Below the pieces are notes generated by a model that ran no database searches, was not told the DNA's origin, and was given only the letters and a program-made list of their open reading frames with translations. Made by a program: the position numbers and the translations under genes. From a virus: a stretch of 41,174 nt of DNA. Location of the stretch: IMG/VR virus record IMGVR_UViG_3300021373_001029, positions 1 to 41,174 of that record, one strand, 5' to 3'. Below are positions 1 to 23,654 of this stretch, piece by piece (within the stretch, counting starts at the first letter, position 1; the number at the start of each line of letters is the position of its first letter).

Positions 1-23
1 CAAGGTCCTGCGATAATTCTCAT
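1..23 (-). CDS. 5' end of a truncated gene, possibly KdsA-like sugar-acid synthase
   Basis: The minus strand reads ATG at 23-21 followed by codons for M-R-I-I-A-G-P and then TG at the window edge. The ATG overlaps the TGA of the upstream 90-residue gene (ATGA), and an AAAGGA ribosome binding site lies about 6 nt before it, so a coupled start is well supported. If the broken codon is Cys, the N-terminus is I-I-A-G-P-C. That is the start motif of the 3-deoxy-octulosonate 8-phosphate (Kdo-8-P) synthase / DAHP synthase fold, which condenses PEP with a sugar phosphate. Only seven residues are visible, so this is a hypothesis. The neighbouring KpsS-like transferases and cupins make a sugar-acid synthase sensible. 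Confidence 0.4.
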
Positions 24-292
24 TGTTTTTCCTTTATTACATAATAAGTTGTTACCAACTTGTCCATTAATTTTTTTAGTGTAGTGTTTGTTTCGCACAA
101 GTCGCACAAACGCATCCATTCGCTATAGTCGACAAGGTTGCCTTGCGCTCTTGCTACAGCACCAGGGTCACCGCCTATAATCCACCTGGGTTGGACGTTA
201 TAAGGGGGATCTCTATATTGAGCATATACTACACCGTTTGCTCTAGTGTATATAAGTGCAGCACCAGGTATTAAGTTATGTTGCTGAGCCAA
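20..292 (-). CDS. small conserved-type hypothetical protein (90 aa)
   Basis: I do not recognise this protein. It has 90 residues, no signal peptide or membrane segment, a Gly/Pro-rich N-terminal half and a charged helical C-terminus with a C-x2-C pair around residues 63-66. The only upstream start in frame is TTG at 292, inside the last codons of the cupin gene (17-nt overlap), with no good ribosome binding site, so the start is uncertain. Coupling to the cupin, or a frameshift product of it, are alternatives. Its TGA overlaps the ATG of the next gene. Its position between a cupin and a possible KdsA suggests a part in the same sugar pathway, but this is only context. Confidence 0.6.
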   Translation of the reverse strand: MAQQHNLIPGAALIYTRANGVVYAQYRDPPYNVQPRWIIGGDPGAVARAQGNLVDYSEWMRLCDLCETNTTLKKLMDKLVTTYYVIKEKQ

Positions 293-1147: not shown

Positions 1148-2611
1148 TTAATTCCAGTCTACTTTTTCTATAGTGAAAGGATATTGTGCTTCCTTATAGA
1201 ATTTTTTACGTTGGGTTAAGTGTCGCTTTGCAAATTTGCACGTTGAAGTGATATCCCAAATTTGAACAAAGTCTTTGTCCTTTGCCTTTCTTACGCCTCT
1301 GCCTATAGACTGAATTACCCTGACAAAACTTTTGCCAGGCTCAATGAGAACAAGATTAAAAATACGCGGTATATTAATACCGACAGCCGCGACACCGTAT
1401 GTGGCGATAACGACGTGATTAGTTCCTTCATTGATTTCATCATACGCTTCCTTGCGATCTTTTAATTTTACATCGCCCTTTACAAATACACTTCCTGGTA
1501 TTAGTTCTTGTAGTATTTCACCTGCACTAATCCTGTCTACAAGGATAAGTGTATTTCCTGATTGTTTTACTGTAGTTAGTAGTTTGCCTATATATTCTAG
1601 CCTTGATTGATTTGTTGTTAAGTATTTTAATTCTGACTGATAATCTGAGTGTGATTGTGTGTCCAGTAGTTGTACTACATTAACGTGACATTGCGACAGT
1701 ACACCTTTATCTTGTAATTCTTTTGCGCTAATCTGTCCAATAACTGGTCCCAAACTAGCGTGTATACTTTCAAATTCAAACTTCTCTCTTGGTATTGTTC
1801 CTGTTAGTCCCCAACGTATTGGAGCATTTTTTAAATTACGTGTAAGTAAATTCTTTAGTACTTCTGCTTTGGCCTGGTGTACTTCGTCGACAATAACAGT
1901 GCTTACACCATCTAAGAACTCCGCTAGTGATAACACTGCTTCTCCGTCCTTGTGCTTCTTGTCAAGTATATTCAAACTTTGCCAAGTGCATATAGTGTGA
2001 GTCTTGCCTAGTTCTTTTCTGTCGCCGAAGTACACCCCAGCATCAAGTCCGCAGTTAATATAGTCTTCCTCTGTTTGTGTAACAAGACTCTTGTTAGGCA
2101 CAATAATAAGACTACGTCCATACGGCTCAGTTATGTGTGAAAGTGTTGCTGTAGTAATTGTTTTACCTGCACCAGTAGCAATCTGTTGCAAGCTCTGTGG
2201 ATGTTTTAAAAAGTTATTAATTGATTCTACTTGATAGTCACGTAGAATAATTTCTTCGCCTTCTGCTGAATGACCTTTAGGCCAACATACTCCTTGATCG
2301 GCCCAATATCGTTCTGTTACTGGCTGAAAGTTAAATTGTATAGGATGCCTGTTATCTTCAATGTCTATTATTTGTACATTATTTTTTTGCAAAACTTCAC
2401 TAACAACATCAAGATGATTAACGTAACCTGTACCGCCAATACCAAAAAAAGCAACTTTACCGTCCCATCGACCAAGTTTATACTGTGGCATATATCGTGC
2501 GTAAGGCACTTCGAACTTGAGAGCATTCGCCAGCTTTCTTCGTACATCAACTTCTAATCCTTCTAGTTTGATGTTTACTTCATCTTCAATTATTAGTTTG
2601 CAAGTTGCCAT
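1148..2611 (-). CDS. uvsW: UvsW-type SF2 DNA/RNA helicase
   Basis: This is a superfamily 2 helicase like T4 UvsW, which unwinds R-loops and branched DNA and moves replication from origin- to recombination-dependent mode. It has 487 residues from ATG 2611, close to the family length. An N-terminal DNA-binding region (about 1-115) is followed by the Q-type motif RDYQ, Walker A A-T-G-A-G-K-T (145-151), motif II D-E-V-H (242-245), motif III G-L-T-G-T (268-272) and the C-terminal RecA-like domain with G-R-G-V-R. An upstream in-frame TTG at 2641 would add ten residues. ATG 2611 is preferred because it forms TAATG with the preceding gene's stop and gives the usual N-terminus. The 168-residue gene follows after 1 nt. 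Confidence 0.95.
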   Translation of the reverse strand: MATCKLIIEDEVNIKLEGLEVDVRRKLANALKFEVPYARYMPQYKLGRWDGKVAFFGIGGTGYVNHLDVVSEVLQKNNVQIIDIEDNRHPIQFNFQPVTERYWADQGVCWPKGHSAEGEEIILRDYQVESINNFLKHPQSLQQIATGAGKTITTATLSHITEPYGRSLIIVPNKSLVTQTEEDYINCGLDAGVYFGDRKELGKTHTICTWQSLNILDKKHKDGEAVLSLAEFLDGVSTVIVDEVHQAKAEVLKNLLTRNLKNAPIRWGLTGTIPREKFEFESIHASLGPVIGQISAKELQDKGVLSQCHVNVVQLLDTQSHSDYQSELKYLTTNQSRLEYIGKLLTTVKQSGNTLILVDRISAGEILQELIPGSVFVKGDVKLKDRKEAYDEINEGTNHVVIATYGVAAVGINIPRIFNLVLIEPGKSFVRVIQSIGRGVRKAKDKDFVQIWDITSTCKFAKRHLTQRKKFYKEAQYPFTIEKVDWN

Positions 2612-3828
2612 TAAAGGGTCTCTATTTGTTTTCGTTTCCAAGGACTAATGTCAGAGTCATAATGCATTACAAGATCTAATGCCTCAATGTATGCATCTGT
2701 CTTTGCGCCAGCACTTCTATTTGAGGAAGTTGTTATAGCAGTAATTGGCTGCCAATCACTTTTTAACAAAGGCTTTGGAACTTTATTGTTACTAATATAC
2801 ACTATTTTTGTATTATTGTCAACCTTATTATTAAGATTATTAGCTTTAATGTATTGATTAAATTCCTCACCTTCTGAATTATTATCTAATCTAAATAATA
2901 CACTACAACTTTCGTTTGGTATTATGCCACTAAATGCTCTATGAAACTGTACTAATTCGTCATAGCATTGTTTTTCATTTAAAACTATTACTAAAGGAAA
3001 ACGATATAATTCAAGTATTACTTCTGCTAAATTATTAATTGTGTATTGTGACGAATTTACTAATACTTGGTGAAACTCTCTATTAACAATTTTTTGAGAT
3101 AACGGAGTTAGATGTTTTAAACTTTCAAGTAAATCGTCTTTATCAAAATGGTATAAACCTAATCGATCTTTTTGATCGTAAAATTGATACAAATTATCTG
3201 CTGTTGGAGTACCAACACTACTGATAGCATAGTCTAAACTTTTAGTATGTAAGTTTTTAAGTTGCATTCCGTATATGCCTGGTATATAATTCTGTTTATT
3301 GTTTTTCATTTCTTTTAACTTTTCAAAATATACAAGAAGTTCATCTTGAACTTCAAAATTAGTAACGTCTTTAAATGTGCTTACTACATTATATACGTTA
3401 CTTTCACTTAATTTAAAATAATGGATTTTATATTCTTTATCATAAAATGCGTCTTGCGAGTCTGACATTAGTCTTTTTAATTTATCAAGTTGTAGAATTA
3501 ATTTCTTTTGAAAAATAAATCTAATACCTATCCACAATTCGTTATCATTTAATTCAACAATCTTAATCCATCTACTTCTATCAATAGAACGCAAAGGCAT
3601 ACGCAACTGCGATAAATCGTTTACCTCATAGTTATTTTTTTCAAGTTGTTCTTTGTAATAACTAATTTTTGTTTTAGCAAGGTCACACTGCCTGTCAGTA
3701 AACGGTATACTATTTGATATTTGTTTTGCAAAACTAAACATAAGAGAATGGTCACTACTATCTAGTGTTATGTCTGCACTACCTTGGAATCCGGTAAGGA
3801 GTTCTATATAATCTTCTACTGTAAACAT
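2611..3828 (-). CDS. unknown 405-aa protein coupled to uvsW
   Basis: No family is recognised with certainty. The first half is Lys/Leu-rich and helical. The second half (about 255-395) alternates beta strands and helices, with V-I-V-L-N-E, V-L-F-R-L-D, K-I-V-Y-I-S-N and I-T-A-I-T-T-S-S-N-R-S segments that look like a RecA-like helicase second domain without clear Walker motifs. It could be a degenerate helicase or a UvsW partner. Its TAA overlaps the uvsW ATG (TAATG), so the two are translationally coupled. ATG 3828 is the start, 14 nt after the preceding glycosyltransferase. It is very AT-rich compared with uvsW. Confidence 0.8.
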   Translation of the reverse strand: MFTVEDYIELLTGFQGSADITLDSSDHSLMFSFAKQISNSIPFTDRQCDLAKTKISYYKEQLEKNNYEVNDLSQLRMPLRSIDRSRWIKIVELNDNELWIGIRFIFQKKLILQLDKLKRLMSDSQDAFYDKEYKIHYFKLSESNVYNVVSTFKDVTNFEVQDELLVYFEKLKEMKNNKQNYIPGIYGMQLKNLHTKSLDYAISSVGTPTADNLYQFYDQKDRLGLYHFDKDDLLESLKHLTPLSQKIVNREFHQVLVNSSQYTINNLAEVILELYRFPLVIVLNEKQCYDELVQFHRAFSGIIPNESCSVLFRLDNNSEGEEFNQYIKANNLNNKVDNNTKIVYISNNKVPKPLLKSDWQPITAITTSSNRSAGAKTDAYIEALDLVMHYDSDISPWKRKQIETL

Positions 3829-3842
3829 ATATGTAGTATACG

Positions 3843-4721
3843 CTAAACTATCTTAGATGTCAAGTGTTTAAGTGGTAAGCCTTGAGATATTTCTTCTACT
3901 GTATATTCAGTATGGGCATAGTCGTTTAGCCATTGTTGTCTATCTGGCATTAAAGGTTGTTCTATGTTGTGTAAAAAATCAATATCATTACCTACATCAT
4001 AAGCAAGAGAACTAGGACTAACAAAGCTAGGAACACCGGCGATGATACTATGTATCCCAGGGTTACTACTATGGCTGATAGTACAATGTATGTTACTAAA
4101 CCCCATATCAAAATCATCATAAGTATTGGCAATGTGTTGCGGCTCCTGTCTTGTAACGTATTTAAGACCTCGTTCAATATGTTCTAATCTGCATCGTGGG
4201 TGCGCTCTAAATATAATAGGTCGATCTGTGTGCTTACGTATTTCGTCATATGTATTTAAGAACCAATTGCTCATACGAGGCATATCTTGCCACTGTAAAC
4301 TTTTATCGTGTTGACCACATATTAAAATAGAATCCCCGTTGGATCTCCAAGGTTTACAAACCAATCCCAAACTAGTAGCCCTAGTGCTATCATTGTTGCC
4401 ACTACTAAAGTAGCCAGTTCTGTTAATTCCATTTAATCCTACCTTCCAAGTTGTGCCGCGTTTAATACCGCCAACTTCTAAAACTATAACTGGTTTATCT
4501 AACAAACGATTTTGTTCCCATACCGTTTTGTTTTTTGCCATTCTTCCGTTCCATAGTACACTCCATATAACAGCAACGTCATAGTTACTATAGTGATCGC
4601 CAATCCTGTAGGGTTCGTTGTATATTACTTTATGTCCAGCGTCAACTAAACTTTTTGCAAATGCTTCAAATACAGGCTTACTGTTTAGTGCGCCATAATC
4701 AGTGTAGAGGCAGAAAATCAT
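3843..4721 (-). CDS. KpsS/KpsC-like GT-B glycosyltransferase, paralog 1
   Basis: This 292-residue protein resembles the capsule polysaccharide synthesis (KpsS/KpsC-type) transferases, whose characterised members transfer Kdo from CMP-Kdo. It shares with four neighbours the block T-D-R-P-I (165-169) followed by R-A-H-P (172-175), a Ser/Asn-rich loop S-H-S-S-N-P-G (216-222) before a Gly-Val-Pro turn, and a C-terminal tail N-I-E-Q-P...R-Q-Q-W-L-N. No signal peptide or membrane span is seen, so it is probably cytoplasmic. It starts at ATG 4721 and is divergent from the plus-strand GT-A gene, with only 41 nt between the starts and a late-promoter motif on each strand. Donor and acceptor are unknown. 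Confidence 0.75.
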   Translation of the reverse strand: MIFCLYTDYGALNSKPVFEAFAKSLVDAGHKVIYNEPYRIGDHYSNYDVAVIWSVLWNGRMAKNKTVWEQNRLLDKPVIVLEVGGIKRGTTWKVGLNGINRTGYFSSGNNDSTRATSLGLVCKPWRSNGDSILICGQHDKSLQWQDMPRMSNWFLNTYDEIRKHTDRPIIFRAHPRCRLEHIERGLKYVTRQEPQHIANTYDDFDMGFSNIHCTISHSSNPGIHSIIAGVPSFVSPSSLAYDVGNDIDFLHNIEQPLMPDRQQWLNDYAHTEYTVEEISQGLPLKHLTSKIV

Positions 4722-4723
4722 TG

Positions 4724-4731
4724 GTTAAATA
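4724..4731 (+). promoter_or_regulatory. late-promoter motif, plus strand (GTTAAATA)
   Basis: GTTAAATA matches the T4-type late promoter core and ends 31 nt before ATG 4763 of the plus-strand glycosyltransferase. It is the mirror image of the minus-strand copy at 4743-4750. Confidence 0.5.
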
Positions 4732-4742
4732 CTCCATATACA

Positions 4743-4750
4743 TATTTAAC
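4743..4750 (-). promoter_or_regulatory. late-promoter motif, minus strand (GTTAAATA)
   Basis: The minus strand reads GTTAAATA, 21 nt before ATG 4721 of the first KpsS-like gene. With 4724-4731 it forms a symmetrical divergent pair. Confidence 0.5.
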
Positions 4751-4762
4751 AAGAGGACTCCT

Positions 4763-5608
4763 ATGACATCAATAACAGTGGTTACAACCTTTCATAAACC
4801 TGGATTAGACACATATGGTCAGAGATTCTTAGACAGTTTTGCACAACGAGTTAGTAAAAAAATAAAACTACTAGTGTATGCTGAGGATTGTAATCCAATC
4901 AATCCTGATCCAGATCAGATTACAATATTTGATGCAAAAGAAGTATTGCCTAAACTAAACGCTTTTAAAGAGAGGTGGAAAGATGATCCAAGGGCAAACG
5001 GCATACCTCCAGACGCTATTAAAGCACGTAGACCAAGGGATTGGCAAAAGAAATTTAAGTGGGATGCTATACGCTTTGCTAATAAAACATATGCTGTGTA
5101 TGACGCTTGTGAACGCTCTAAGGGCTGGTGTGTGTGGATGGATGCAGACACGTTTGTACATAGCGATTGGAGTCACAAAGAGTTTAATAATTTATTACCA
5201 AATAATACTTGGTTAACGTATGTAGGTAGAGGCAAAGGATCACAGACTTGGCCAGAGTGTGGGTTTTATGGAATGAACTTAAATCATCCTGTATGTCACG
5301 AATTTCTAAAAGAATTTGAAAGGGTTTACGAAGATGCCGATAATGGTATATTTAAATTGGAAGAATGGCACGACAGTTATGTGTTTGGACACATACTTAA
5401 TAATATGAAGAAAAACTTTCCTAATGTATTAGACTATTCAGCAGAAATGTATTTGCGCGAAGCTAAAACAGGTGGTGGCGGACATCCGTTAATTAATAGT
5501 GTGTTAGGTAAATGGATGGATCATATGAAAGGTGTGCGTAAAGACGAAGGTCGTAGTCGAACACAGGACTTAATGGTTAAAAGAACTGAAGGTTATTGGA
5601 ATAGTTAA
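4763..5608 (+). CDS. GT-A fold glycosyltransferase (DAD motif)
   Basis: This is a 281-residue glycosyltransferase. It opens with a Rossmann-like strand (T-S-I-T-V-V-T-T-F) and has the metal/nucleotide-sugar binding motif W-M-D-A-D-T (125-130). A later Gly-rich W-P-E-C-G-F-Y-G acceptor region and an E-E-W-H-D-S-Y-V block follow. An upstream ATG in frame (4655) lies inside the divergent gene. The start at 4763 is chosen because it has AGAGG upstream and lies downstream of the GTTAAATA promoter. It is the only plus-strand gene within a minus-strand block. Its TAA shares TTAA with the stop of the convergent paralog 2. The sugar donor is unknown. Confidence 0.85.
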   Translation: MTSITVVTTFHKPGLDTYGQRFLDSFAQRVSKKIKLLVYAEDCNPINPDPDQITIFDAKEVLPKLNAFKERWKDDPRANGIPPDAIKARRPRDWQKKFKWDAIRFANKTYAVYDACERSKGWCVWMDADTFVHSDWSHKEFNNLLPNNTWLTYVGRGKGSQTWPECGFYGMNLNHPVCHEFLKEFERVYEDADNGIFKLEEWHDSYVFGHILNNMKKNFPNVLDYSAEMYLREAKTGGGGHPLINSVLGKWMDHMKGVRKDEGRSRTQDLMVKRTEGYWNS

Positions 5609-6423
5609 TCTGTTAAGTACTTCCAGTGTATACCTTCTTTCATTTCTGATATAGTAAATTGACAATATGATAAGTGTGTTAGAAATGCAAACATTTCGTC
5701 TTTATTTGGAACTTTAGGATTTTCTATATTCTTAATATCTGTTTCGCATATGTTTTGTGCAGCATTTGGTCCTAGTGTAATAGCAGGTTTGCCTGCTAGT
5801 AGTGCTTCTGTAGCAGCAATACTATTGTATGTAACTAAACAATGAACATCATCTACTAGAGTATGTACAATACTTTTAACCGTTTGACGATCAGTTCTAC
5901 TAGGCTTCAATCTTACTTGTATAGGTCGATCAGTAAGTTGAGTTAACTGTTTAATAATATTATTAGTCCATTCTTCTGGACTTGGTTGATTAAAAAAGGA
6001 CATTACTTTTTTACTAGGAGGACATACTAATATTTTACGACCAGGAGTAATTGGGTTGTAAATGTCTTTCCATTTTGCTTGCATCTGTATTTCTAATCGT
6101 TCTACATTTTGTTGTTTTATAGTTTTTGTATTTTGTAATTCATTATATGTAACTCGATGCCATAATTTTTTCTTTCGATTGCCAAAGTAACCAGAATCAA
6201 TATAATAGAACGGTAAATTATTTCTCTGTGCATTATGAATCCAATGGCCTACAGATGCCGACATTCCTCTCGCTATTATAGGTATTGATTGTTCTACGGC
6301 TTGCGATGCAGGTAGCAATCGTTTATTGGCTCCTTTTGCAAATGCATCTAGAGCAAAGTCATATCGATATTTTGATTTACGAAAACCTTCTCTTAAATTA
6401 ATAGCAGCAGCCTTAGCAGACAT
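5605..6423 (-). CDS. KpsS/KpsC-like GT-B glycosyltransferase, paralog 2
   Basis: This 272-residue member of the local GT-B family has T-D-R-P-I (164-168), R-L-K-P-S-R (171-176), the loop V-T-Y-N-S-I-A-A-T-E-A-L (197-208) and G-K-P-A-I-T-L-G-P-N (211-220). The last two closely follow the capsule-synthesis signature for nucleotide-sugar binding. It is closest to the C-terminal half of the fusion at 7339-9051, including near-identical DNA stretches. The start is ATG 6423, which forms TAATG with the previous gene and has AGAG about 10 nt upstream. An upstream TTG at 6450 would add nine residues and is less likely. R-L-K-P replaces the R-A-H-P of paralog 1. Confidence 0.8.
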   Translation of the reverse strand: MSAKAAAINLREGFRKSKYRYDFALDAFAKGANKRLLPASQAVEQSIPIIARGMSASVGHWIHNAQRNNLPFYYIDSGYFGNRKKKLWHRVTYNELQNTKTIKQQNVERLEIQMQAKWKDIYNPITPGRKILVCPPSKKVMSFFNQPSPEEWTNNIIKQLTQLTDRPIQVRLKPSRTDRQTVKSIVHTLVDDVHCLVTYNSIAATEALLAGKPAITLGPNAAQNICETDIKNIENPKVPNKDEMFAFLTHLSYCQFTISEMKEGIHWKYLTD

Positions 6424-7352
6424 TATACATATTCTCTTATGTGTCTCCAAGCAGAGCCGTTTGATAATTCATCAAAGTTCCAATGAAACATACTAATACG
6501 CTCTAACCATTTTTGTCGATCAAATTGTTGAGGATTTTCTATTTTACTAAAGTCAGTATGTACTACTTCGGCACATTGACTTTTGATTGGATCAGTTATA
6601 AACCCCGGGTATCCTTGAATTAATGGTCCAACAATACTACTGCTATTATGATTTACTACTGCCCACGCTTTTGCAAGATCTTGATCTAACGGTGTTCCTA
6701 GTGCTGAAATTTTTATTTTATTATTATGTTGATACTTTCGGATTAATATTGGAAGGTAACTTGTTATAGCTTTTTTATCACCTGGATGCGCTCTAATTAC
6801 AATAGTTCTATCAGTATATTGAGTTATCTTTGCAATAGTAGTGTCTAGCCAATCAACAACAGACAGCGACCCCATACTCCAGCCTTGATTACGTTGTAGA
6901 CAAATTAATATATTTTTTCCTTTTACCCTTGGCTCTTGAATTTTAATACCTAAATGATTAGATATTTGTTGCCACCGAGACGGATTAGGATTATCATCAA
7001 AGTAGTTTCCAGTATTTGGAAACACGCCGTCAAAACTATATCTCAAATAGTGATGAGGATGATTTGTTTTGTTTGCATATAGAAATAGATTTGCGTCTGC
7101 TGTACACACTCGCTTGTTTGCTGTACGCTGCATTACACGTTGCCTTAATTGTAAATGCGGAGCATTTTTACCAACTTCGTGCTGCCAACCCTGAATCATT
7201 CCAACATCACATTGTTGTAGATCATACCCTTGATGCACGTAACCTTGGTCGCCAGCAGCATTAACTCCAGCTATAAATTTAGTTAAGATGTCAAACTTTT
7301 CTTGGCTTTTATTAAGAGAAGGTACGACATTATAGTAACTAATGACTTTCAT
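6423..7352 (-). CDS. KpsS/KpsC-like GT-B glycosyltransferase, paralog 3
   Basis: This 309-residue protein is probably cytoplasmic. It has Y-T-D-R-T-I-V-I-R-A-H-P-G near residues 188-200, the loop V-V-N-H-N-S-S-S-I-V-G-P before G-Y-P-G-F-I, and the family tail K-I-E-N-P...D-R-Q-K-W-L-E. The N-terminal half is quite different from paralog 2, as expected if acceptor specificity differs. It overlaps the upstream fusion gene by 14 nt and the downstream paralog by 1 nt, so the three form a coupled translation unit. The specific reaction is not known. Confidence 0.75.
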   Translation of the reverse strand: MKVISYYNVVPSLNKSQEKFDILTKFIAGVNAAGDQGYVHQGYDLQQCDVGMIQGWQHEVGKNAPHLQLRQRVMQRTANKRVCTADANLFLYANKTNHPHHYLRYSFDGVFPNTGNYFDDNPNPSRWQQISNHLGIKIQEPRVKGKNILICLQRNQGWSMGSLSVVDWLDTTIAKITQYTDRTIVIRAHPGDKKAITSYLPILIRKYQHNNKIKISALGTPLDQDLAKAWAVVNHNSSSIVGPLIQGYPGFITDPIKSQCAEVVHTDFSKIENPQQFDRQKWLERISMFHWNFDELSNGSAWRHIREYV

Positions 7353-9051
7353 TTACTATATCCCAGGCAAAACCGTTCATTAGCTCGCCTCTTGAAAACT
7401 GACAATAACTTAGATGAGCCATTAGTGCTGTCATTTCGTCTCTGTCTGGAATATGTAAATTTTCAACCTCTGCTAATGTAGTATTACACACCATTGATGC
7501 ACAATTTGGTCCTAATGCAATAGCAGGCTTTCCAAAATTTAATGCTTCTAAGGCAGCAATACTATTGTATGTAACCAAGCAGTGTACATCTTTTGCTAGT
7601 GCAGCTTCAATTGAGTCGTTGGCTATACGTTGTGTTCTATTAGGTTTTAGACGCACTTCGATGGGGCGATTGGTGTGTTGTTTTAACTGTTCTACTATTT
7701 GTTGTGTCCATTCTTCTGGACTTGGTTGATCAAAAAATTTCATAACCTTATCACTAGGAGGACATACTAATATTTTGCGACCAGGTTTAAATTTTCTAAA
7801 TTTCCAACCTAATAATCTATCTGTAGGACGTTCAATAATTGGCCCATAGTCTTGTAAGTTATTTTTTGTAACTCTATGCCAACCTTTTGATTTGCTTTTT
7901 GAATTACCAAAATATCCTGTATCAATAGCGTAAAAATCTCTGCCAGTTTCCCAACAGTGTTTAACTGCTTCTCTACTAGACTTTCCGACGCCACGAATAA
8001 TCAACGGAGTATCTGTATTTTTTTCTTCGTCCCAAGTACTTAATTTGCCGTTGCAACCTAATGAAAATGCTTCTAAGTATTCGTCGTAAACATAGTTTTT
8101 TCCGTTGTAGTTTAAATCATCGTTAAAAATTGCTGCTACTTTAGCAGTCTTTTCTTGTTGAAATTTGTTTTGTATTATCTTCATTGCACTTTCCTCAGTA
8201 TGACCGTAGTAAGTTCCTTTAGGGTCAATTGTTGCACATACAAAAGAACTAATTGTTTCTTTGAAGTCTTCTGGTAATGTTAAATTATTAATTAAATTAG
8301 GAGCTCGTTTTTCAGCCATCATTTTTGCGGTTACGTTTTGATATTCCTTTATAAGAAATTTACGTTCATTTTTATAATATTCATTTGAATACTCGCAGTC
8401 GTAATACTCCGGAAACCACGGGCCTCCTTCTGTGTAGTGTAAGAATTTAGGAGTGCCGTCTTCGGGCTCATTATACCAGCCTACTAACCAATTCCATTCG
8501 TGACTTATTTCGCCTATCTCTTCATCTTTAAGCCAACTAAATCTATGTAAGTATGCACCAGTAATATCTTCGTTATTAACTAACTCTGTAGTTAAGTTTG
8601 CATTACTAGGATGTCCGCAATTTATTAACATCATACTTGACCAATTTTTACGAGGATATTGATGTTGCTCTTTGCCGTCCATCTTAGTTCCTTGTTTGGG
8701 CGTATAGTCGTGCTTTGCACACATTACTGCATACTTGTCGTCTTTTTGATCAAACAATTTTTTAACATCGTCAAGAGCAATAAAGTCGCAATCAATAAAC
8801 AATGCCCAGCCTTTGTGTTGTCGCAGTGCCGGAACTAAGAAACGAGTAAATGTAAATTCTGTACTTGCAAGTTTGTCTTTGTCTCTCCAATATACACCTT
8901 TTTCTCTAAGATTTTTTTGTTTTAACGGAACAATATCTACGTTAACTGATGCAGTATCAATAATACTTTGCTTACAGGCTTGATATGCAATATCTTCTCT
9001 ACTATCCCAACCTATGTAAATTTTATAATCGTATTTGCTATTTTCTTTCAA
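7339..9051 (-). CDS. bifunctional GT-A + KpsS-like GT-B glycosyltransferase, paralog 4
   Basis: This is a two-domain enzyme of about 570 residues. The N-terminal domain (about 1-235) is GT8-like: Y-K-I-Y-I-G-W-D-S-R-E opening, donor motif F-I-D-C-D-F, and an E-W-N-W-L-V-G-W-Y plus H-Y-T-E-G-G-P end block. The C-terminal domain (about 285-570) carries T-N-R-P-I-E-V-R-L-K-P, V-T-Y-N-S-I-A-A-L-E-A-L and G-K-P-A-I-A-L-G-P-N. The likely start is TTG 9051, with a perfect GGAGG six nt upstream. GTG 9066 would add five residues but lacks a site. It overlaps the 3' end of the cytidylyltransferase-cupin gene. Fusion of two transferases suggests sequential addition of two sugars, an inference. Confidence 0.85.
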   Translation of the reverse strand: MKENSKYDYKIYIGWDSREDIAYQACKQSIIDTASVNVDIVPLKQKNLREKGVYWRDKDKLASTEFTFTRFLVPALRQHKGWALFIDCDFIALDDVKKLFDQKDDKYAVMCAKHDYTPKQGTKMDGKEQHQYPRKNWSSMMLINCGHPSNANLTTELVNNEDITGAYLHRFSWLKDEEIGEISHEWNWLVGWYNEPEDGTPKFLHYTEGGPWFPEYYDCEYSNEYYKNERKFLIKEYQNVTAKMMAEKRAPNLINNLTLPEDFKETISSFVCATIDPKGTYYGHTEESAMKIIQNKFQQEKTAKVAAIFNDDLNYNGKNYVYDEYLEAFSLGCNGKLSTWDEEKNTDTPLIIRGVGKSSREAVKHCWETGRDFYAIDTGYFGNSKSKSKGWHRVTKNNLQDYGPIIERPTDRLLGWKFRKFKPGRKILVCPPSDKVMKFFDQPSPEEWTQQIVEQLKQHTNRPIEVRLKPNRTQRIANDSIEAALAKDVHCLVTYNSIAALEALNFGKPAIALGPNCASMVCNTTLAEVENLHIPDRDEMTALMAHLSYCQFSRGELMNGFAWDIVNESH

Positions 9052-9805
9052 TATCTTCCTCCACACATTCTGTGCCGCGCTGTACTTCTAGTATATGGGC
9101 ATTTTGATTTCCTGGATTAGATGCCTGATGCCACACGCCAATGTCGATTCCGTAAGGACGACTGTCAGGTTTTAGTAGTAATGAGCTCTGTACATCGTTC
9201 CAGTTAGTATCCATTCTAACTTCGCCTTCTAGTATAGTCCACAGTTCTGATCGTTTAAAATGTCTTTGGTTGCTTAGACTTTTGCCGGGATATATTACAA
9301 GTTCTTTTACTTTATAACCTTTCTCTGGTTTGTGATCTAGCACACGCCAGTAACCCCAGTCACGTTCAGTCTTTTGTGTTTTCCATTCATCAAGTATCCA
9401 ACTACTCGAATTCATTTTGTTGTTGCCGCCAACGCCAAACACAAATTCTACATTATGCGCATCGGCATATGTTGTCATTTCTGGAATATTAGAATCTGTT
9501 CTGTCGCCACCGTTTGCAAAAATAATATGCGCACTGCTATTTGTTGCTAAAGTTTTATAAATTGCACCACAAGCAGAATCATCAGAGTCGTCAAAACTCA
9601 TTACATCATCTACTATTGTCATTTCTTTTATTAATGCAAGGCGTTCTTGGAAAGGCATAAAGGGCCTGCCTTTCTTGCGTGTTAACCATTCGTCACTGTT
9701 CAAACCAACAACAAGTTTGTCGCCTAGCTTCTTCGCTTCTTTAAAATACTCAATATGTCCTGAGTGTAAGGGATCAAATCCCCCAGTTACCAATACTAGT
9801 TTCAT
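9038..9805 (-). CDS. cytidylyltransferase-cupin fusion protein
   Basis: This 255-residue protein has an N-terminal nucleotidyltransferase domain (about 1-135) with T-G-G-F-D-P-L-H-S-G-H (7-17), containing the H-x-G-H motif. This is followed by a cupin domain (about 165-245) with H-F-K-R-S-E-L-W-T-I-L-E-G. The first half resembles the RfaE/HldE adenylyltransferase and glycerol-3-phosphate cytidylyltransferase family, which activates phosphosugars or polyols with CTP or ATP. The classical downstream S-T-T motif is not obvious. Fused to a cupin it could make and isomerise an activated sugar for the nearby transferases (inference). ATG 9805 lies 5 nt after the late motif AATAAATA, with no ribosome binding site. 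Confidence 0.85.
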   Translation of the reverse strand: MKLVLVTGGFDPLHSGHIEYFKEAKKLGDKLVVGLNSDEWLTRKKGRPFMPFQERLALIKEMTIVDDVMSFDDSDDSACGAIYKTLATNSSAHIIFANGGDRTDSNIPEMTTYADAHNVEFVFGVGGNNKMNSSSWILDEWKTQKTERDWGYWRVLDHKPEKGYKVKELVIYPGKSLSNQRHFKRSELWTILEGEVRMDTNWNDVQSSLLLKPDSRPYGIDIGVWHQASNPGNQNAHILEVQRGTECVEEDIERK

Positions 9806-9810
9806 ACTGA

Positions 9811-9818
9811 TATTTATT
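9811..9818 (-). promoter_or_regulatory. late-promoter motif AATAAATA
   Basis: Minus-strand AATAAATA followed by exactly five bases (TCAGT) and the ATG of the cytidylyltransferase-cupin gene. The predicted start of transcription falls at or next to the ATG. Confidence 0.5.
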
Positions 9819-9839
9819 AACTACTAGTATTATTATTTT

Positions 9840-10322
9840 TTAGATTGACTTTGAAAACTTAACGTGTAGATGCTTGCCTTTATTTCTAACGCAATATATG
9901 TTAGTAAAATTTTCTTCAGTAAGAATGTTCTGTAATGTATAAAGATTGTATCCACTTTTATGAATATCCCATACATCACTGTCGCCTTCTCTTTGCCAAC
10001 CCCAAAATCCTGCTTGAGCGTGTTCTATATGTTTTCCTGATATCCATTGTTGAATATGATAATCCATATTCGGTAACATCATTTCGCATATAGCATCTGT
10101 CTTCATAATATTATGCCAGGCACGTAATGTTCTGCGTCCTTGGTCAAATGTTAAATGTTCAAAGAAATGCCTAGAAAAAATATTATCTACACTACTATGA
10201 TTTATTAGTTTATCAATCTCCCAAGCAGGACATACAAAATCTATTTTTGGTAATTTTCTAATATCACAGGTTTTGAAACCTAATTTTGTTGGATTTTCTC
10301 CACACCCAAATTCTATGTCCAT
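9840..10322 (-). CDS. class I SAM-dependent methyltransferase (short)
   Basis: This 160-residue methyltransferase has motif I E-F-G-C-G-E-N-P at residues 4-11 and an acidic C-D-I-R-K-L strand (motif II). A V-D-N-I-F-S-R-H-F-F-E-H-L block (motif IV/V) follows, as in sugar and small-molecule methyltransferases of glycan clusters. It is truncated at the N-terminus compared with typical 200-250 residue members but complete through the Rossmann core. ATG 10322 has AGGAGTAATACAAA in front. It sits between GT-B paralog 5 and the cytidylyltransferase, so methylation of a sugar or glycan end is the best guess. DNA or protein as target cannot be excluded. Confidence 0.8.
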   Translation of the reverse strand: MDIEFGCGENPTKLGFKTCDIRKLPKIDFVCPAWEIDKLINHSSVDNIFSRHFFEHLTFDQGRRTLRAWHNIMKTDAICEMMLPNMDYHIQQWISGKHIEHAQAGFWGWQREGDSDVWDIHKSGYNLYTLQNILTEENFTNIYCVRNKGKHLHVKFSKSI

Positions 10323-10328
10323 TTTGTA

Positions 10329-11246
10329 TTACTCCTCTAACAAATGATACCACGGATCACCTCTAGAGATTTCATCCTCTCGCCATTGACAGTATCCTAA
10401 ATTATTTAACCATTGTTGTCTTTCAAACATAATTGGATTTTCAATGTTTGCTAAATCTTTATTGCTACAGTCCCAGGCCATAGAACTTGAACACATACTA
10501 AATGTAGGAATACCTTCGCATATACTTTCTGTTAGTGCATTTGAATTAAACCCTACTACAGCATATGCATCACGAAAGTCTTTATATAAACCGTCGCCGC
10601 CTTCTAATAGCCCTGCTGCCTGACCACTACCGAGAGTGTTTTCGCTAATATCAATATTAAAGTTTTTTAATACTTGCAATTGGCGGTCTTGGCGTAACGG
10701 ATGCATACGTACACGTATAGGACGATCAGTATGTTTTTTAATTTCATTTAGTGTAAATGTAAGAAAGTTTTCATAAGATCCGTGCTTTTCTAACAAATTC
10801 TTTAGACTACTATCACCAGGACGTTGTAATACTACGAGTATATATTCACCTGATGTACGCCAGTCTTTGATTTCTATATTTTGTTCTCGTTGTATACGCA
10901 ACCACCTATCACTCGGACTATTTTCGTTACAGTAGTTACCTTCGTCTTGGAAGTAACTTGTCCAGCTGTATCTATGATATGCTCCTGGACAGCCAGGTTT
11001 CTTCATATTTCGACGGAATACTGCACTTTCTGTTACTATAAAAGGCTTATTACTATCTAATATATATTGATAGTATTTTTTAAACTTTTTTCTCTTTTGA
11101 CTAATAATATTATTTTGTATTAAAACATCAGCAGATTGTATAGTATCTTGATCAGCCCAAGGCACAATTTTAAAGTTAGGAAGATCGGGTATAGGATGAT
11201 TCCTATACATTTCTTCTATACCGACTACTAAACTATTTTTGTTCAT
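10329..11246 (-). CDS. KpsS/KpsC-like GT-B glycosyltransferase, paralog 5
   Basis: This 305-residue protein belongs to the same local family: H-T-D-R-P-I-R-V-R-M-H-P near residues 168-179, a G-F-N-S-N-A-L-T-E-S loop near 235-245, G-I-P-T-F-S-M after it, and the tail N-I-E-N-P-I-M-F-E-R-Q-Q-W-L-N. The tail resembles paralog 1 most. It contains an unusual Gly-rich insert (G-L-L-E-G-G-D-G) before the Ser/Asn loop. It overlaps the upstream methyltransferase by 14 nt and ends 6 nt before the next methyltransferase, so a methyltransferase flanks it on each side. Confidence 0.75.
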   Translation of the reverse strand: MNKNSLVVGIEEMYRNHPIPDLPNFKIVPWADQDTIQSADVLIQNNIISQKRKKFKKYYQYILDSNKPFIVTESAVFRRNMKKPGCPGAYHRYSWTSYFQDEGNYCNENSPSDRWLRIQREQNIEIKDWRTSGEYILVVLQRPGDSSLKNLLEKHGSYENFLTFTLNEIKKHTDRPIRVRMHPLRQDRQLQVLKNFNIDISENTLGSGQAAGLLEGGDGLYKDFRDAYAVVGFNSNALTESICEGIPTFSMCSSSMAWDCSNKDLANIENPIMFERQQWLNNLGYCQWREDEISRGDPWYHLLEE

Positions 11247-11793
11247 TTCTAAATAACAAACCTGTACGTTTTATAAATTGATGTTTTCTTTTTTTACCCA
11301 TTGTAGAATGTTTACGCATATCTATAGTTAGTTCATTATCAAATATAAATCCGTAACTTAACATTGTATCAATCCAGTATTCTTGTGTATTACAGTTTAC
11401 GTGATGGTATCCATTGGCTCCTACAGGAGCATATGTCATTATTAAAAATTTACATTTTTGCATTGCTTGAACATAGTTTGGAATATATCTTTCGTATACG
11501 TGTTCTACAAATTCACAACTCCAGGCAAGATCGTACTGTTTACTTACTGGAGCAGGGCCGATTGTAAAATCGTGTATAATGAACTTGTTTGAATCGTATC
11601 TTTCTAATGTGTGATCGCCATCAATGCCTTCAGCATCAATGCCTATACTATTGGCAAGTTCAACTTGACCTCCTGGTCCGCATCCAACATCCAACATTGA
11701 GTTTGTATTTAGGTTTTTAATGGCCCATTGTAATACACCTTCGTCGGTATGTGTTACTCCGTTATGCCCTCCAAGATGTTCTTCTAAAATCAT
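11233..11793 (-). CDS. class I SAM-dependent methyltransferase
   Basis: This 186-residue protein has motif I M-L-D-V-G-C-G-P-G-G (33-42), the acidic ribose-binding strand G-I-D-A-E-G-I-D-G-D and a post-II block D-L-A-W-S-C-E-F-V-E-H-V. This is the FkbM/UbiE-like core seen in many polysaccharide clusters. The C-terminus is basic and Lys/Arg-rich (G-K-K-R-K-H-Q-F). It has no target-recognition domain of a DNA methyltransferase, so a glycan or small-molecule target is favoured. Its ATG overlaps the TGA of the GT-A gene upstream (ATGA), showing coupling. Confidence 0.85.
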   Translation of the reverse strand: MILEEHLGGHNGVTHTDEGVLQWAIKNLNTNSMLDVGCGPGGQVELANSIGIDAEGIDGDHTLERYDSNKFIIHDFTIGPAPVSKQYDLAWSCEFVEHVYERYIPNYVQAMQKCKFLIMTYAPVGANGYHHVNCNTQEYWIDTMLSYGFIFDNELTIDMRKHSTMGKKRKHQFIKRTGLLFRNEQK

Positions 11794-12440
11794 ACTATTC
11801 CTTGACTTTTGTATTTGTTATAGGTATTTAAAAACTTTTCTTTAAATTTTTGATCACCTTTTAGTGTTAAAAATACACTATTAGTTTTATTTTTTCCTAT
11901 TGACATCCATTGATTGCCAACTGACTGAAAATTAAATTTACCTGCAAATGTATTTAACACTATTTGATCTCGTCCCCATTTCCACTCGTCAAATGGAATT
12001 GATGTTAATTCTTCATATAGTTCTTGTCTAAGACTGTTTTGATTAAACACAACTAGTCCGGCTAGCCACCTATCTTCTTTATGATGTTTTAGAACGTGTT
12101 GTTTTTTAAACAAGTTGTTAATCTCAGTAGGATTAATTATTGAACGTGTACATATAGTGTCGCAGTCAAGAGTAACTACATTTTCATTATTAGAAAATTT
12201 TTCTTTTGCTACTAAAAATCGTACTCCTTGTAAATACGAAATTTTTGCTTCGTCGTTTACAAACTGTCTTTGTTCGGTGGTAATGCTTGCGTATTTTAAT
12301 TTATTAAGTTTTGTAGGATTTACAATATGACAATGTAGTCCAAGCCACGGGTTATGTCGATGTATACTTGATAGTAATGGTACTGCCCAAGTGTCGTAAT
12401 AAGTTTGATCACATCCTAATACTACATTATAAAGTGGCAT
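11790..12440 (-). CDS. GT-A fold glycosyltransferase (DCD motif)
   Basis: This 216-residue transferase has an opening strand Y-N-V-V-L-G-C-D, an L-L-S-S-I-H-R-H-N helix as in GT8-type enzymes, the donor motif V-T-L-D-C-D-T-I (89-96) and a late W-K-W-G-R-D-Q-I-V-L-N acceptor block. It starts within the last codons of uvsY (14-nt overlap), so the glycan cassette is read through directly from the recombination operon. This links its timing to uvsXY transcription. It is shorter than usual GT8 proteins (about 280-330) and may act on a small acceptor. The donor is unknown. Confidence 0.8.
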   Translation of the reverse strand: MPLYNVVLGCDQTYYDTWAVPLLSSIHRHNPWLGLHCHIVNPTKLNKLKYASITTEQRQFVNDEAKISYLQGVRFLVAKEKFSNNENVVTLDCDTICTRSIINPTEINNLFKKQHVLKHHKEDRWLAGLVVFNQNSLRQELYEELTSIPFDEWKWGRDQIVLNTFAGKFNFQSVGNQWMSIGKNKTNSVFLTLKGDQKFKEKFLNTYNKYKSQGIV

Positions 12441-12882
12441 CTTCCATACCCGCTACTCTTAGCTTAACTACGTTAGTAATTTGCCATTGTTTTTGATCAA
12501 GAGCTTTGAGTACACCTAACCATTTGTTACGCATTAGTGCGAATTCGTTAATGATTTTTTCATAGTCAACAACGTCTGCCTCACCGTCAACGTATTTTTC
12601 AACGTCACGGCTTGACAGAGCTCGTTGGTAGTTTTCAAGGTATTTTTTAAAGTATGAGCTACGCAATCTACGTAGCTCAATATTTAGATAGTTTAGTATA
12701 GCTTCAATCTCTTGAAGTTGATTAAATCGTTGTTCAACAATACCTGGCATACTTGCTGCCGCACGTTCTACATTGCCAACTAGTTTAACCTCTTTGCGAG
12801 CATCAACCATTTCGTTTTCAAAGTAAGCAACTGCTTGTGGTATTTTGTTTATATCACGAGATACTTCGCTATACCAACCCAT
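12427..12882 (-). CDS. uvsY: UvsY recombination mediator
   Basis: T4 UvsY loads UvsX onto gp32-covered single strands. This 151-residue protein has the expected size (T4: 137). The L-R-R-L-R-S-S-Y-F-K-K-Y-L segment (71-83) and A-L-S-S-R-D-V-E-K-Y-V-D-G-E block (88-101) are typical of marine T4-like UvsY, and the C-terminal K-L-R-V-A-G-M-E-D-A is also characteristic. It is mostly helical and charged. ATG 12882 forms TAATG with the small acidic gene upstream. The order uvsX - small gene - uvsY supports the call. Confidence 0.9.
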   Translation of the reverse strand: MGWYSEVSRDINKIPQAVAYFENEMVDARKEVKLVGNVERAAASMPGIVEQRFNQLQEIEAILNYLNIELRRLRSSYFKKYLENYQRALSSRDVEKYVDGEADVVDYEKIINEFALMRNKWLGVLKALDQKQWQITNVVKLRVAGMEDATL

Positions 12883-13115
12883 TATTCATCCCACTCTAGT
12901 TCTTCTTCTAATACATCATCTTCGTCAAGGTCTAGATAATAATTAATAGCAATGTCTAAAGCAGTATCGTGACCTAATGCAGATATAAGTTGCTGATCTT
13001 CAGTACCCATATCAGCCATTAAATCTACATAACGCTCAGCGGCCTGTTCAACGTGCTTTTTATCAACATACTCTTTAAACAATGTCCAAATATCAACTAT
13101 CTGTGTGTCGTCCAT
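12882..13115 (-). CDS. small acidic protein between uvsX and uvsY (77 aa)
   Basis: This is an unrecognised helical protein of 77 residues with a strongly acidic end (D-L-D-E-D-D-V-L-E-E-E-L-E-W-D-E). ATG 13115 has GAGGAG six nt upstream, and it is coupled to uvsY by TAATG. A role with UvsX/UvsY is likely from position. The acidic tail could mimic DNA or the gp32 C-terminus, but this is a guess. Confidence 0.8.
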   Translation of the reverse strand: MDDTQIVDIWTLFKEYVDKKHVEQAAERYVDLMADMGTEDQQLISALGHDTALDIAINYYLDLDEDDVLEEELEWDE

Positions 13116-21879: not shown

Positions 21880-22248
21880 CTAGTATAAAATATTCCTCTG
21901 TTCGAGTTTTTCGTATTTTGATTCTACCTTAAACCCTAGAGTACTAATTTTTTCCCTATCATAATTTAATACGTTTGCAACAATGTCACTCAATTGAACA
22001 TTAGTTAATCCTTTAAGTGTATCAATAAGCTCAAAAACATTTATACTATCGATCTTTGCTTGTTGCAGTAGTGCAGTTGCTACAGCGATAGCACTTGATT
22101 TTTCAAATCCTCTATTTTCAAAATATCCAATTACTGCATCAACTTCTGAAGCAGGATATTCTATTCTATCAGTAAGGTACTTATTAAAAAATTGTTTTAC
22201 TTCAGCGCCGCTGTCAGTTTCTTGTTTTTTTGGTAAGTTAGATGACAT
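21880..22248 (-). CDS. hypothetical late protein (122 aa)
   Basis: This is an unrecognised, mainly helical protein of 122 residues with a F-F-N-K-Y-L-T-D-R-I-E-Y block near 20-31 and Leu/Ile-rich amphipathic helices after it. It has no Cys and no membrane span. ATG 22248 forms TAATG with the preceding gene and has AGGAA. It is bounded by a tube-like protein and gp4, so a connector or tail-tube accessory role is suggested only by position. Confidence 0.8.
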   Translation of the reverse strand: MSSNLPKKQETDSGAEVKQFFNKYLTDRIEYPASEVDAVIGYFENRGFEKSSAIAVATALLQQAKIDSINVFELIDTLKGLTNVQLSDIVANVLNYDREKISTLGFKVESKYEKLEQRNILY

Positions 22249-23654
22249 TATGTATTTCCTAAAGGATTTTTCTGTGCAGGAACGGTACTAATATTTCCTT
22301 GGCCAGTTTCATTAAAGTTATTTACTATTTGATTTGCAAGTTGTACTATCTTTTGATTGCCGTTTTCAATGGCACTATCAACTTGGTTTAATAATGAATT
22401 TTTTTCTGTAGTGTTAAGTGTATCCCAAGTTGTTAAGTCCGCAGATATTTCTGTTGTTGTACTAATAGCACCGATTGCTAGTGATTTTTTAGCTAGTGTT
22501 TCTTTTAGTTGAGGATTATCGTTTAGTGTTTGTACAACTTCAATTGGAGGATATAATTTATTTTGTTTTTGGGTAATAACTGCTATTGCTTCAGTAGGTT
22601 GCGTTCCAGTACCTCCGCTCTTAGGAAAACTAGTATTTGCAAGACCACTTACGTTAGTTCCTGTTGCTGTTCTAATAGTTTGTCCTGCAACTTGAAAAGC
22701 TTCGTTACGTACACCTTCTTTTGTAAGATCTTTTGCATTTTTAACTGTGCGAGCTGCTGTAAGTAATGTACCCAAGTCTGCTTTGCCACTTGCTATGTCT
22801 CCAAGTACACTAGTTCCGCCTGCTAGTATGCCAGCACTTCCAAATAAACTTGACGAGCTACCTGCTGCAATAGGACTAGGAGTATTATCGTAATGTACTG
22901 TTCCAAACCCTTTAGGTGAGTTACCTTCGTCAATAGGCCCGTCTGCATAAAATACACTTTCGTATGCAACACTCATAGAATTTTGTACAGGATCAGCTCC
23001 AGCAGAATTTTCTAACGTATCGTGCTGCCAACTTTCAATTATTGGATTAACTAATGTTAATGTTAGATACTGATGTCTTGCCATTTGACTTATTTGTATA
23101 CTTGTAAAAAATGGTTCGTATTGATTATTATCTAGTCCAAATCTATCTCCATTGCGTGTTGCACCCATATATGTGTTAAATCTGTCATACGGTCTTGCTG
23201 TCTGATTAGGTGCTCCTGCACCGTCTCTGCTGCCGTATGTACCATCTGCAAAATAGTAGTTATAATATGCAGTCCATAATTGAGTAACAATACTATTGTT
23301 GTCATCGTGGAATACAATATTTACAGGAGAATAATCAATACGTGTTTGTAAATTCTTTTTACGATTGTATTTGTTCTTAGTTTCAGTTTGTATATCAAAC
23401 TTTGGCATAGTAACACTTTTAACTAACATATTAACTTCGTTACTATGACGCTGAACCCATCCAGGTAATACTTTGTTTACTACATTTTCATTTAAGTTAA
23501 GTGTTACGTGATATAGAAATTTTTGTTTAGGAGCAAGGCGAAAATTATCGTCAGTATACAATCTTGCCGCGTGTGTATAATCGGCCATATCCCCTTTGGG
23601 GCTAAGAGCGCCGTTAACTAAATTATCTAAGAATCCATTGAATATGTTTGCCAT
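22248..23654 (-). CDS. tail-tube fold protein, gp19/gp54-like (468 aa)
   Basis: Residues about 45-215 have the strand pattern of gp19-type tube proteins (V-K-S-V-T-M-P, Y-S-P-V-N-I-V-F-H-D-D, final L-T-L-V-N-P-I-I-E-S-W). The remaining half is Gly/Ser/Ala/Thr-rich and helical. T4 gp54 (tube initiator, 320 residues) is the nearest functional analogue by layout, but I cannot prove it. The ATG lies 5 nt after GATAAATA, behind a terminator that separates it from gp19, so it has its own transcript. It is not a portal protein, which T4 has next to gp19. Confidence 0.7.
   Translation of the reverse strand: MANIFNGFLDNLVNGALSPKGDMADYTHAARLYTDDNFRLAPKQKFLYHVTLNLNENVVNKVLPGWVQRHSNEVNMLVKSVTMPKFDIQTETKNKYNRKKNLQTRIDYSPVNIVFHDDNNSIVTQLWTAYYNYYFADGTYGSRDGAGAPNQTARPYDRFNTYMGATRNGDRFGLDNNQYEPFFTSIQISQMARHQYLTLTLVNPIIESWQHDTLENSAGADPVQNSMSVAYESVFYADGPIDEGNSPKGFGTVHYDNTPSPIAAGSSSSLFGSAGILAGGTSVLGDIASGKADLGTLLTAARTVKNAKDLTKEGVRNEAFQVAGQTIRTATGTNVSGLANTSFPKSGGTGTQPTEAIAVITQKQNKLYPPIEVVQTLNDNPQLKETLAKKSLAIGAISTTTEISADLTTWDTLNTTEKNSLLNQVDSAIENGNQKIVQLANQIVNNFNETGQGNISTVPAQKNPLGNT

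Follow-up and report, generated by a model that had tools for sequence, protein, structure and literature searches.

The 41,174-nt window analyzed here (the whole of IMG/VR record IMGVR_UViG_3300021373_001029) derives from a large marine bacterial virus and carries a glycosyltransferase (GT) island between uvsY and uvsW. On the minus strand, the island reads GTA3, MT2, E, MT1, a cytidylyltransferase-cupin gene, a GT8/GT-B D fusion gene, C, B, GTA1 (plus strand), A, and a gene for a protein of 405 amino acids (aa). Checked gene by gene, these genes agree in content and coordinates with the original prediction, which listed five GT-B domains, three GT-A-type domains, two methyltransferases, and a cytidylyltransferase-cupin (Table 1). 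We find that the five GT-B domains form one family, in which gene E is a predicted transferase of 3-deoxy-D-manno-octulosonic acid (Kdo) from its cytidine monophosphate (CMP) derivative, CMP-Kdo. Kdo ordinarily serves bacteria as a component of outer membranes and capsules. The other four members lack the catalytic nucleophile, and genes for CMP-Kdo synthesis accompany the island in its lineage.

Table 1. Features of the glycosyltransferase island and other features of the window
Feature	Position	Strand	Remarks
kdsA start (Kdo-8-phosphate synthase)	1..23	-	cut by record end; overlaps stop of preceding gene
90-aa gene	20..292	-	precedes kdsA in relatives, directly or after a small cupin gene
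uvsW helicase	1148..2641	-	opposite side of the island from uvsY
405-aa gene	2611..3828	-	between island and uvsW
GT-B A	3843..4721	-	Gln and RXHP kept; Ser at nucleophile position; acidic residue Glu; dN/dS about 0.1
GTA1, putative GT-A (GT2-like)	4763..5608	+	invariant DXD; in line in other relatives
GT-B B	5605..6450	-	copy of D; weaker selection
GT-B C	6423..7352	-	Gln and RXHP kept; Gly at nucleophile position; acidic residue Asp
GT8-type GT-A + GT-B D fusion	7339..9066	-	Pro for Gln, KP for HP; separate neighboring genes in many relatives
Nucleotidyltransferase (HIGH-type) + mannose-6-phosphate-isomerase-type cupin fusion	9038..9805	-	PF01467 57 bits, PF01050 62 bits, both above cut-off
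MT1, methyltransferase-like	9840..10322	-	PHROG methyltransferase, E-value 2e-5; Pfam below cut-off
GT-B E	10329..11246	-	QXXXD (Q141, D145), RXHP (R180, H182), E73; predicted retaining CMP-Kdo transferase
MT2, methyltransferase-like (GCGPG)	11233..11793	-	Methyltransf_23, E-value 1e-4, below cut-off
GTA3, putative GT-A	11790..12440	-	invariant DXD
uvsY	12427..12882	-	one island border; 14-base overlap with GTA3
77-aa open reading frame	12882..13115		
468-aa protein with tail-tube-like domain	22248..23654		
Tail tube	23748..24386		
Tail sheath	24425..27565		1046 aa

The five GT-B domains are paralogs of one family

Every pair of the five GT-B domains is found by blastp (E-values of about 1e-82 to 1e-6). 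The top pair is B and the C-terminal half of the 575-aa fusion protein (D), which are 49% identical (E-value about 1e-82), and the lowest pairs share 22-30% identity (E-values 1e-30 to 1e-6). By sequence, the domains are true paralogs of a single family rather than members of unrelated families. The motif T-D/N-R-P/T-I, the Ser/Asn-rich loop, and the motif E-(N/Q)-(P/L), which the original prediction had described as common to the five, are present in all of them. However, the last motif is not the C-terminal tail it was taken for, since it lies 35-40 residues before the C-terminus, and the actual C-terminal signature is E-x3-G. The different N-terminal halves claimed for the five do not apply to B and D, which align across both their N- and C-terminal halves. 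The tree of the GT-B domains contains four ancient lineages, A, C, D, and E, and B is a younger copy of D. B-type copies of D are found in the window and in two relatives (L007 and L082), and a more distant one is found in L052.

A search of IMG/VR with gene E returned 79 loci, and a profile built from the five GT-B domains identified 220 domains within the fetched loci. The cut-off of the Pfam family Capsule_synth (PF05159) is reached by none of the five, with B scoring 13.7 bits against the required 20, and only 2 of 104 family members match PF05159 with an E-value below 0.1. Some members are held in BFVD as uncharacterized or capsule-type proteins. Among them are at least four proteins of the same fold from the giant algal virus Tetraselmis virus 1 (A0A2P0VNK4, A0A2P0VP54, A0A2P0VP74, and A0A2P0VP72), and this eukaryotic virus may have a comparable multi-copy GT-B set. 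An unannotated E-like GT-B with QXXXD and RPHP was also observed in a podovirus (L087, MW202713.1, positions 4746-5567), where its neighbors are a TibC-like glycosyltransferase gene and a methyltransferase gene, with pyridoxal-phosphate-enzyme and terminase genes directly after.

Gene E resembles retaining Kdo transferases in predicted structure and motifs

The AlphaFold2 model of E, built with 100 family sequences, has a pLDDT of 92.5 and a pTM of 0.90. The structural comparison with KpsC and WbbB that the original prediction had proposed was run for E, and the model has a GT-B fold. In searches of the PDB with Foldseek and with VIA-align, KpsC comes first in both, with WbbB next and KrkA near the top. 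The match to KpsC has a Z score of 15.0 and a root-mean-square deviation of 3.9 over 249 residues, and the Z scores for WbbB and KrkA are 13.2 and 10.7. The top 12 VIA-align matches are all KpsC or WbbB, and the best other fold has a Z score of 10.9 and covers only about 130 residues.

KpsC, WbbB, and KrkA are retaining CMP-Kdo transferases for which a Kdo-enzyme adduct has been demonstrated (PMC10148158, PMC9587256, PMC12887879), and they have in common the motif QXXXD, which contains the nucleophile, and the motif (K/R)XHP, which binds CMP (PMC10148158, PMC12887879). Both QXXXD and RXHP are found in all 20 representative sequences of clade E, and YILVVLQRPGDSS in E is in the same register as the published KpsC peptide around Asp160. 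E73 is likewise invariant in clade E (20/20) and sits at the end of an N-domain strand; it lies near the KpsC base Glu66 by position only, without superposition of the residues, and is a candidate general base. With high confidence, we predict that E is a CMP-Kdo transferase. On its model, E would be filed in the Kdo-transferase fold group, outside the three sequence families of that group.

Sister lineages without the nucleophile remain under strong selection

The donor-site Gln and the RXHP motif are kept throughout clade A (17/17 each) and clade C (23/23 each). At the nucleophile position, clade A has Ser (17/17) and clade C has Gly (22/23), and the conserved acidic residue is Glu in clade A (17/17) and Asp in clade C (23/23). 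The remaining 45 sequences comprise D, B, and outgroups; in these, Pro replaces Gln in 36 and Lys replaces His in 37, and the acidic residue is kept in all. D and B of the window likewise have Pro for the donor-site Gln and RXKP in place of RXHP. By these residues, A, C, D, and B are relatives of the Kdo-transferase fold group that lack its nucleophile. The term KpsS-like, which the original prediction used for all five GT-B domains, is therefore apt as a fold relation, given the structural matches of E, but it applies catalytically to E only, since the other four lack the catalytic Asp. For D and B it is further weakened by the replaced Gln and His, and for the family as a whole by the absence of a Capsule_synth match above the cut-off.

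The ratios of nonsynonymous to synonymous substitution rates (dN/dS) between the window and its nearest relatives are 0.06-0.11 for A, C, and E, about 0.1 for the fusion gene, and 0.24-0.34 for B, indicating that purifying selection is strong for A, C, D, and E and weaker for B. Because dN/dS is as low for A and C as for E, these two genes are not decaying. Judging from the residues at their active sites, A and C perhaps use a changed, possibly inverting mechanism, which could be a single displacement in which the conserved acid serves as base. A broader proposal, that the paralog series represents a retaining-to-inverting switch within one cluster and is used with a phage CMP-Kdo pathway for a virion Kdo glycan, is one we consider rather unlikely.

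Probable genes for CMP-Kdo synthesis accompany the island

The last 23 minus-strand bases of the window (ATGAGAATTATCGCAGGACCTTG) read M-R-I-I-A-G-P-(TG), the first seven codons of a reading frame. Because 20-21 of these 23 bases are identical to the kdsA starts found at the same place in seven relatives, the window phage appears to begin kdsA exactly at the record end. In the relatives, KdsA (with MRIIAGPCQHES and FKASYDKANR) is encoded behind uvsW and is followed by a KdsB-like gene. The KdsA proteins of relatives L105 and L100 match the NCBIfam equivalog of KDO8P synthase with 334 and 319 bits (cut-off 242). In comparison with the PDB, the KdsA proteins match KDO8P synthase and the KdsB-like proteins have KdsB as their nearest solved structures. 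PF02348, the CMP-Kdo/CMP-sialate synthetase family, is found above its cut-off in 8 of 10 relatives, directly behind uvsW where the region was read in detail. All 11 records that bear E and demonstrably reach the site contain kdsA, shorter records being uninformative. In L007, the closest relative with B, a different gene follows the 90-aa gene and the record then ends. In L104 (2047-3513) and L106 (12148-13635), NodU-like carbamoyltransferase genes were observed some kilobases behind kdsB, and the sugar pathway may extend beyond the island.

Because of the kdsA start at the window edge and the kdsA and kdsB-like genes of the relatives, the sugar donor is very probably CMP-Kdo. Both QXXXD and RXHP are intact in E, the synthase of the relatives is of the KDO8P type, and kdsA stands alongside E wherever its site is reached, all of which make it improbable that the GT-Bs use another CMP- or nucleoside-diphosphate sugar while kdsA and kdsB serve a different purpose. 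For such a donor speak the missing nucleophile in four of the five paralogs, the HIGH-type nucleotidyltransferase inside the island, and a report that a KpsS relative in Acinetobacter transfers pseudaminic acid (PMC12887879). The same kdsA and kdsB genes give strong support to the suggestion of the original prediction that the phage builds its own glycan, while the carrier of this glycan is still inferred.

A proposed assembly line and its candidate acceptors

From the gene content, its conservation, the predicted fold of E, the motifs, and the kdsA and kdsB genes of the lineage, we infer the enzymatic activities, the order of steps, and the acceptor. There is about an even chance that the island encodes an assembly line of the phage's own, whose product would be a Kdo-containing, probably methylated oligosaccharide. 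KdsA and the KdsB-like enzyme would make CMP-Kdo, and the host would supply arabinose-5-phosphate and the Kdo-8-phosphate phosphatase step, because neither KdsD nor KdsC was found in seven relatives. As in KpsC and WbbB, Asp145 of E would act as the attacking residue and form a covalent Kdo-enzyme intermediate, so that Kdo is transferred with retention. A and C would use the same or a similar CMP-sugar through another mechanism, perhaps an inverting one. D/B and the GT-A proteins would attach other sugars, and the methyltransferases would modify the chain. The most likely acceptor would be a structural protein of the phage that receives the glycan in the cytoplasm.

No Wzx-type flippase was found in seven relatives, and no ABC ATPase above the cut-off in seven relative records of up to 236 kb, which are possibly incomplete; the product therefore probably stays in the cytoplasm or leaves it by host export. 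In Caulobacter phages, members of the GT-B family and a GT-A gene come after a tail-protein gene and before the lysis genes, a neighborhood that weakly favors a virion protein as acceptor. A virion protein is our first choice, held with about as much doubt as belief, the host lipopolysaccharide (LPS) is second, and DNA is unlikely.

Modification of the host LPS core is a serious rival, although we consider it the less likely one. At the inner membrane face, the same enzymes could add Kdo and other sugars to an envelope glycan of the host, such as lipid A-core or a capsule lipid, and host transporters would export the product. Infection would then leave the receptor hidden and competing phages excluded. 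The characterized relatives KpsC, KpsS, WbbB, and KrkA all build envelope glycans, an exporter is unnecessary if host LPS export is used, and the sugar clusters of jumbo phages have been read in the literature as serving surface modification (PMC7824862). However, the island is without a membrane gene, no lipid-specific enzyme was found, and its own set of GT8, GT2-like, and methyltransferase genes amounts to a whole chain; the location of the Caulobacter phage family members in the tail-lysis region also argues against it.

The neighborhood of recombination genes could suggest instead that the phage DNA carries the glycan, as happens in T4 and in other phages whose bases are hydroxymethylated, and glycosyltransferase arrays hypermodifying DNA exist in phages, going by the title of a reference cited in PMC12619734. 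We regard this acceptor as highly improbable, given that the fold group acts on glycans and that the sole thymidylate-synthase-family protein found in ten relatives (one of 236 kb) resembles ordinary ThyA, with the Asn of the deoxyuridine monophosphate type, and not a hydroxymethylase.

Several observations weigh against the virion Kdo assembly line. The catalytic Asp of QXXXD is kept only by E among the five GT-Bs, and E is missing from some divergent relatives that have A, C, and D. Of these, L067 and L072 are also without kdsA behind uvsW, and L084 has kdsA. The KdsB-like proteins have only KdsB models as their best NCBIfam matches, with 110 bits against the 155 required for TIGR00466. The link to KpsC is structural only and undetectable by sequence profile, because the GT-B family profile found no relevant match among PDB sequences. 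The enzymatic activities of the island proteins are read from sequence and model, and the tie to a virion protein is drawn solely from gene neighborhood in other phages.

Relation to known glycosyltransferase systems

Like KpsC (GT107, which acts with KpsS), the N-terminal module of WbbB (GT99), and KrkA (GT140), the phage family has a GT-B fold, for which they are the best structural matches of E, and it co-occurs with genes for CMP-Kdo synthesis; E also shares with them QXXXD and the (R)XHP motif, and it has an invariant acidic residue of the N-domain as candidate base. In contrast to these systems, it has no sequence-level match to them, it is phage-encoded, no capsule export genes were found, and there are four or five paralogs per phage genome with the nucleophile only in E. 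Among well-characterized retaining glycosyltransferases, a double displacement with a covalent intermediate is so far known only from Kdo transferases, which form three families with negligible sequence similarity (PMC10148158, PMC12887879). The phage group looks like a fourth such family, with ancient nucleophile-less sisters. Because these sister lineages stay under strong selection, the origin or loss of the double-displacement mechanism becomes testable by residue swaps between paralogs. No paper describing phage-encoded Kdo transferases or nucleophile-less paralogs was found in the open-licence literature. kdsA and kdsB have been reported among viral auxiliary genes in seawater, so far as general LPS-type genes of marine viruses (PMC10653327). 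The island connects both genes with a specific enzyme that would use their product within the same genomes, and the target of Kdo glycosylation by phages can now be tested directly.

The sugar clusters described for jumbo cyanophages (P-SSM2 type and S-SCSM2R; PMC7824862) likewise encode sugar activation and several glycosyltransferases, but they consist of other enzymes at another genome place. S-SCSM2R has a GT8/GT24-type protein with 49% identity to that of the window near its KdsB and KdsA, a stretch in which no GT-B of this family was found. The same GT-B family is represented by genes 187-188 of Pelagibacter phage Mosig and by Caulobacter Ccr phage genes (e.g., CcrSC gp170-172), which are annotated as hypothetical proteins or plain glycosyltransferases. 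Unlike the window, these phages have two GT-Bs only, at other genome places and without QXXXD. In Mosig, one GT-B adjoins a GT8-type gene, and the window has the counterparts of these two as a single fused gene. The moraphages, a lineage of large aquatic phages, have four core glycosyltransferase orthogroups, of unstated type (PMC12619734), and resemble the island in this number, by description only.

Conservation and setting of the island

The genes flanking the island belong to the T4-superfamily core (uvsW, uvsY, uvsX, gp32, terminase, tail sheath, and tail tube). A search for the cassette in related phages, as had been suggested, recovered the same island in dozens of marine T4-superfamily contigs. 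By comparison of gene order with the window, the common arrangement is uvsY, GTA3, MT2, E, cytidylyltransferase, GT8 and D, C, GTA1, A, 405-aa gene, uvsW, with genes gained or lost in places. Relatives of 236, 147, and 99 kb have exactly four family members each, all within the island. No DNA match to known phages was found for the window. The genome scan for cellular relatives gave only one phage contig, binned with an archaeal metagenome-assembled genome (MAG). This contig (L117, NZDU01000029.1), filed as a Pacearchaeota MAG, is a mis-binned phage contig with gp32, uvsX, uvsY, and a similar cassette.

The nearest isolates by UvsX (at most 66% identity) are jumbo myoviruses such as Vibrio phage 2.275.O, Sinorhizobium phage Phosso, and Agrobacterium phage Atu_ph07. 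Vibrio phage 2.275.O has a single 268-aa gene between uvsY and uvsW, and the annotations around uvsX in Phosso and Atu_ph07 show no cassette of this kind. The island therefore seems to have been inserted in a branch separate from these isolates. The 268-aa gene was compared with the 405-aa gene of the window and rejected as its homolog. The 405-aa protein itself is 29-96% identical among relatives, and no family match of weight was found for it.

Of the three GT-A domains of the original prediction, that of the fusion is upheld by a Pfam GT8 match just over the cut-off and by its fold, the PDB list of the fusion model being filled by GT8-type structures. GTA1 and GTA3 are supported by the DXD invariant in their orthologs and by weak Pfam GT2/GT8 matches in some of these. 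The GT8-type domain and D are encoded separately by adjacent genes in Mosig, as in many relatives of the window. GTA1 runs against its neighbors in the window and several relatives but with them in others, and it has thus flipped repeatedly inside the conserved island.

Other features of the window

From gp32 through uvsX, the 77-aa open reading frame, uvsY, and GTA3 to B, the genes overlap or are separated by gaps of at most 103 bases, and a single transcript from gp32 to B, judged from this spacing, is possible. The same-strand run that starts at gene 32 stops at B, as the next gene, GTA1, is on the plus strand. The T4-type late promoter TATAAATA occurs 0 times in the whole window, compared with 7.4 (standard deviation 2.7) expected from shuffles. 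Possibly this sequence is avoided, or the lineage has a different late promoter, and the timing of expression of the window genes is therefore unreadable from late promoters. The 468-aa protein with the tail-tube-like domain adjoins the ordinary tail-tube gene and resembles an enlarged second tube protein, and the tail sheath gene lies beyond this pair (Table 1).

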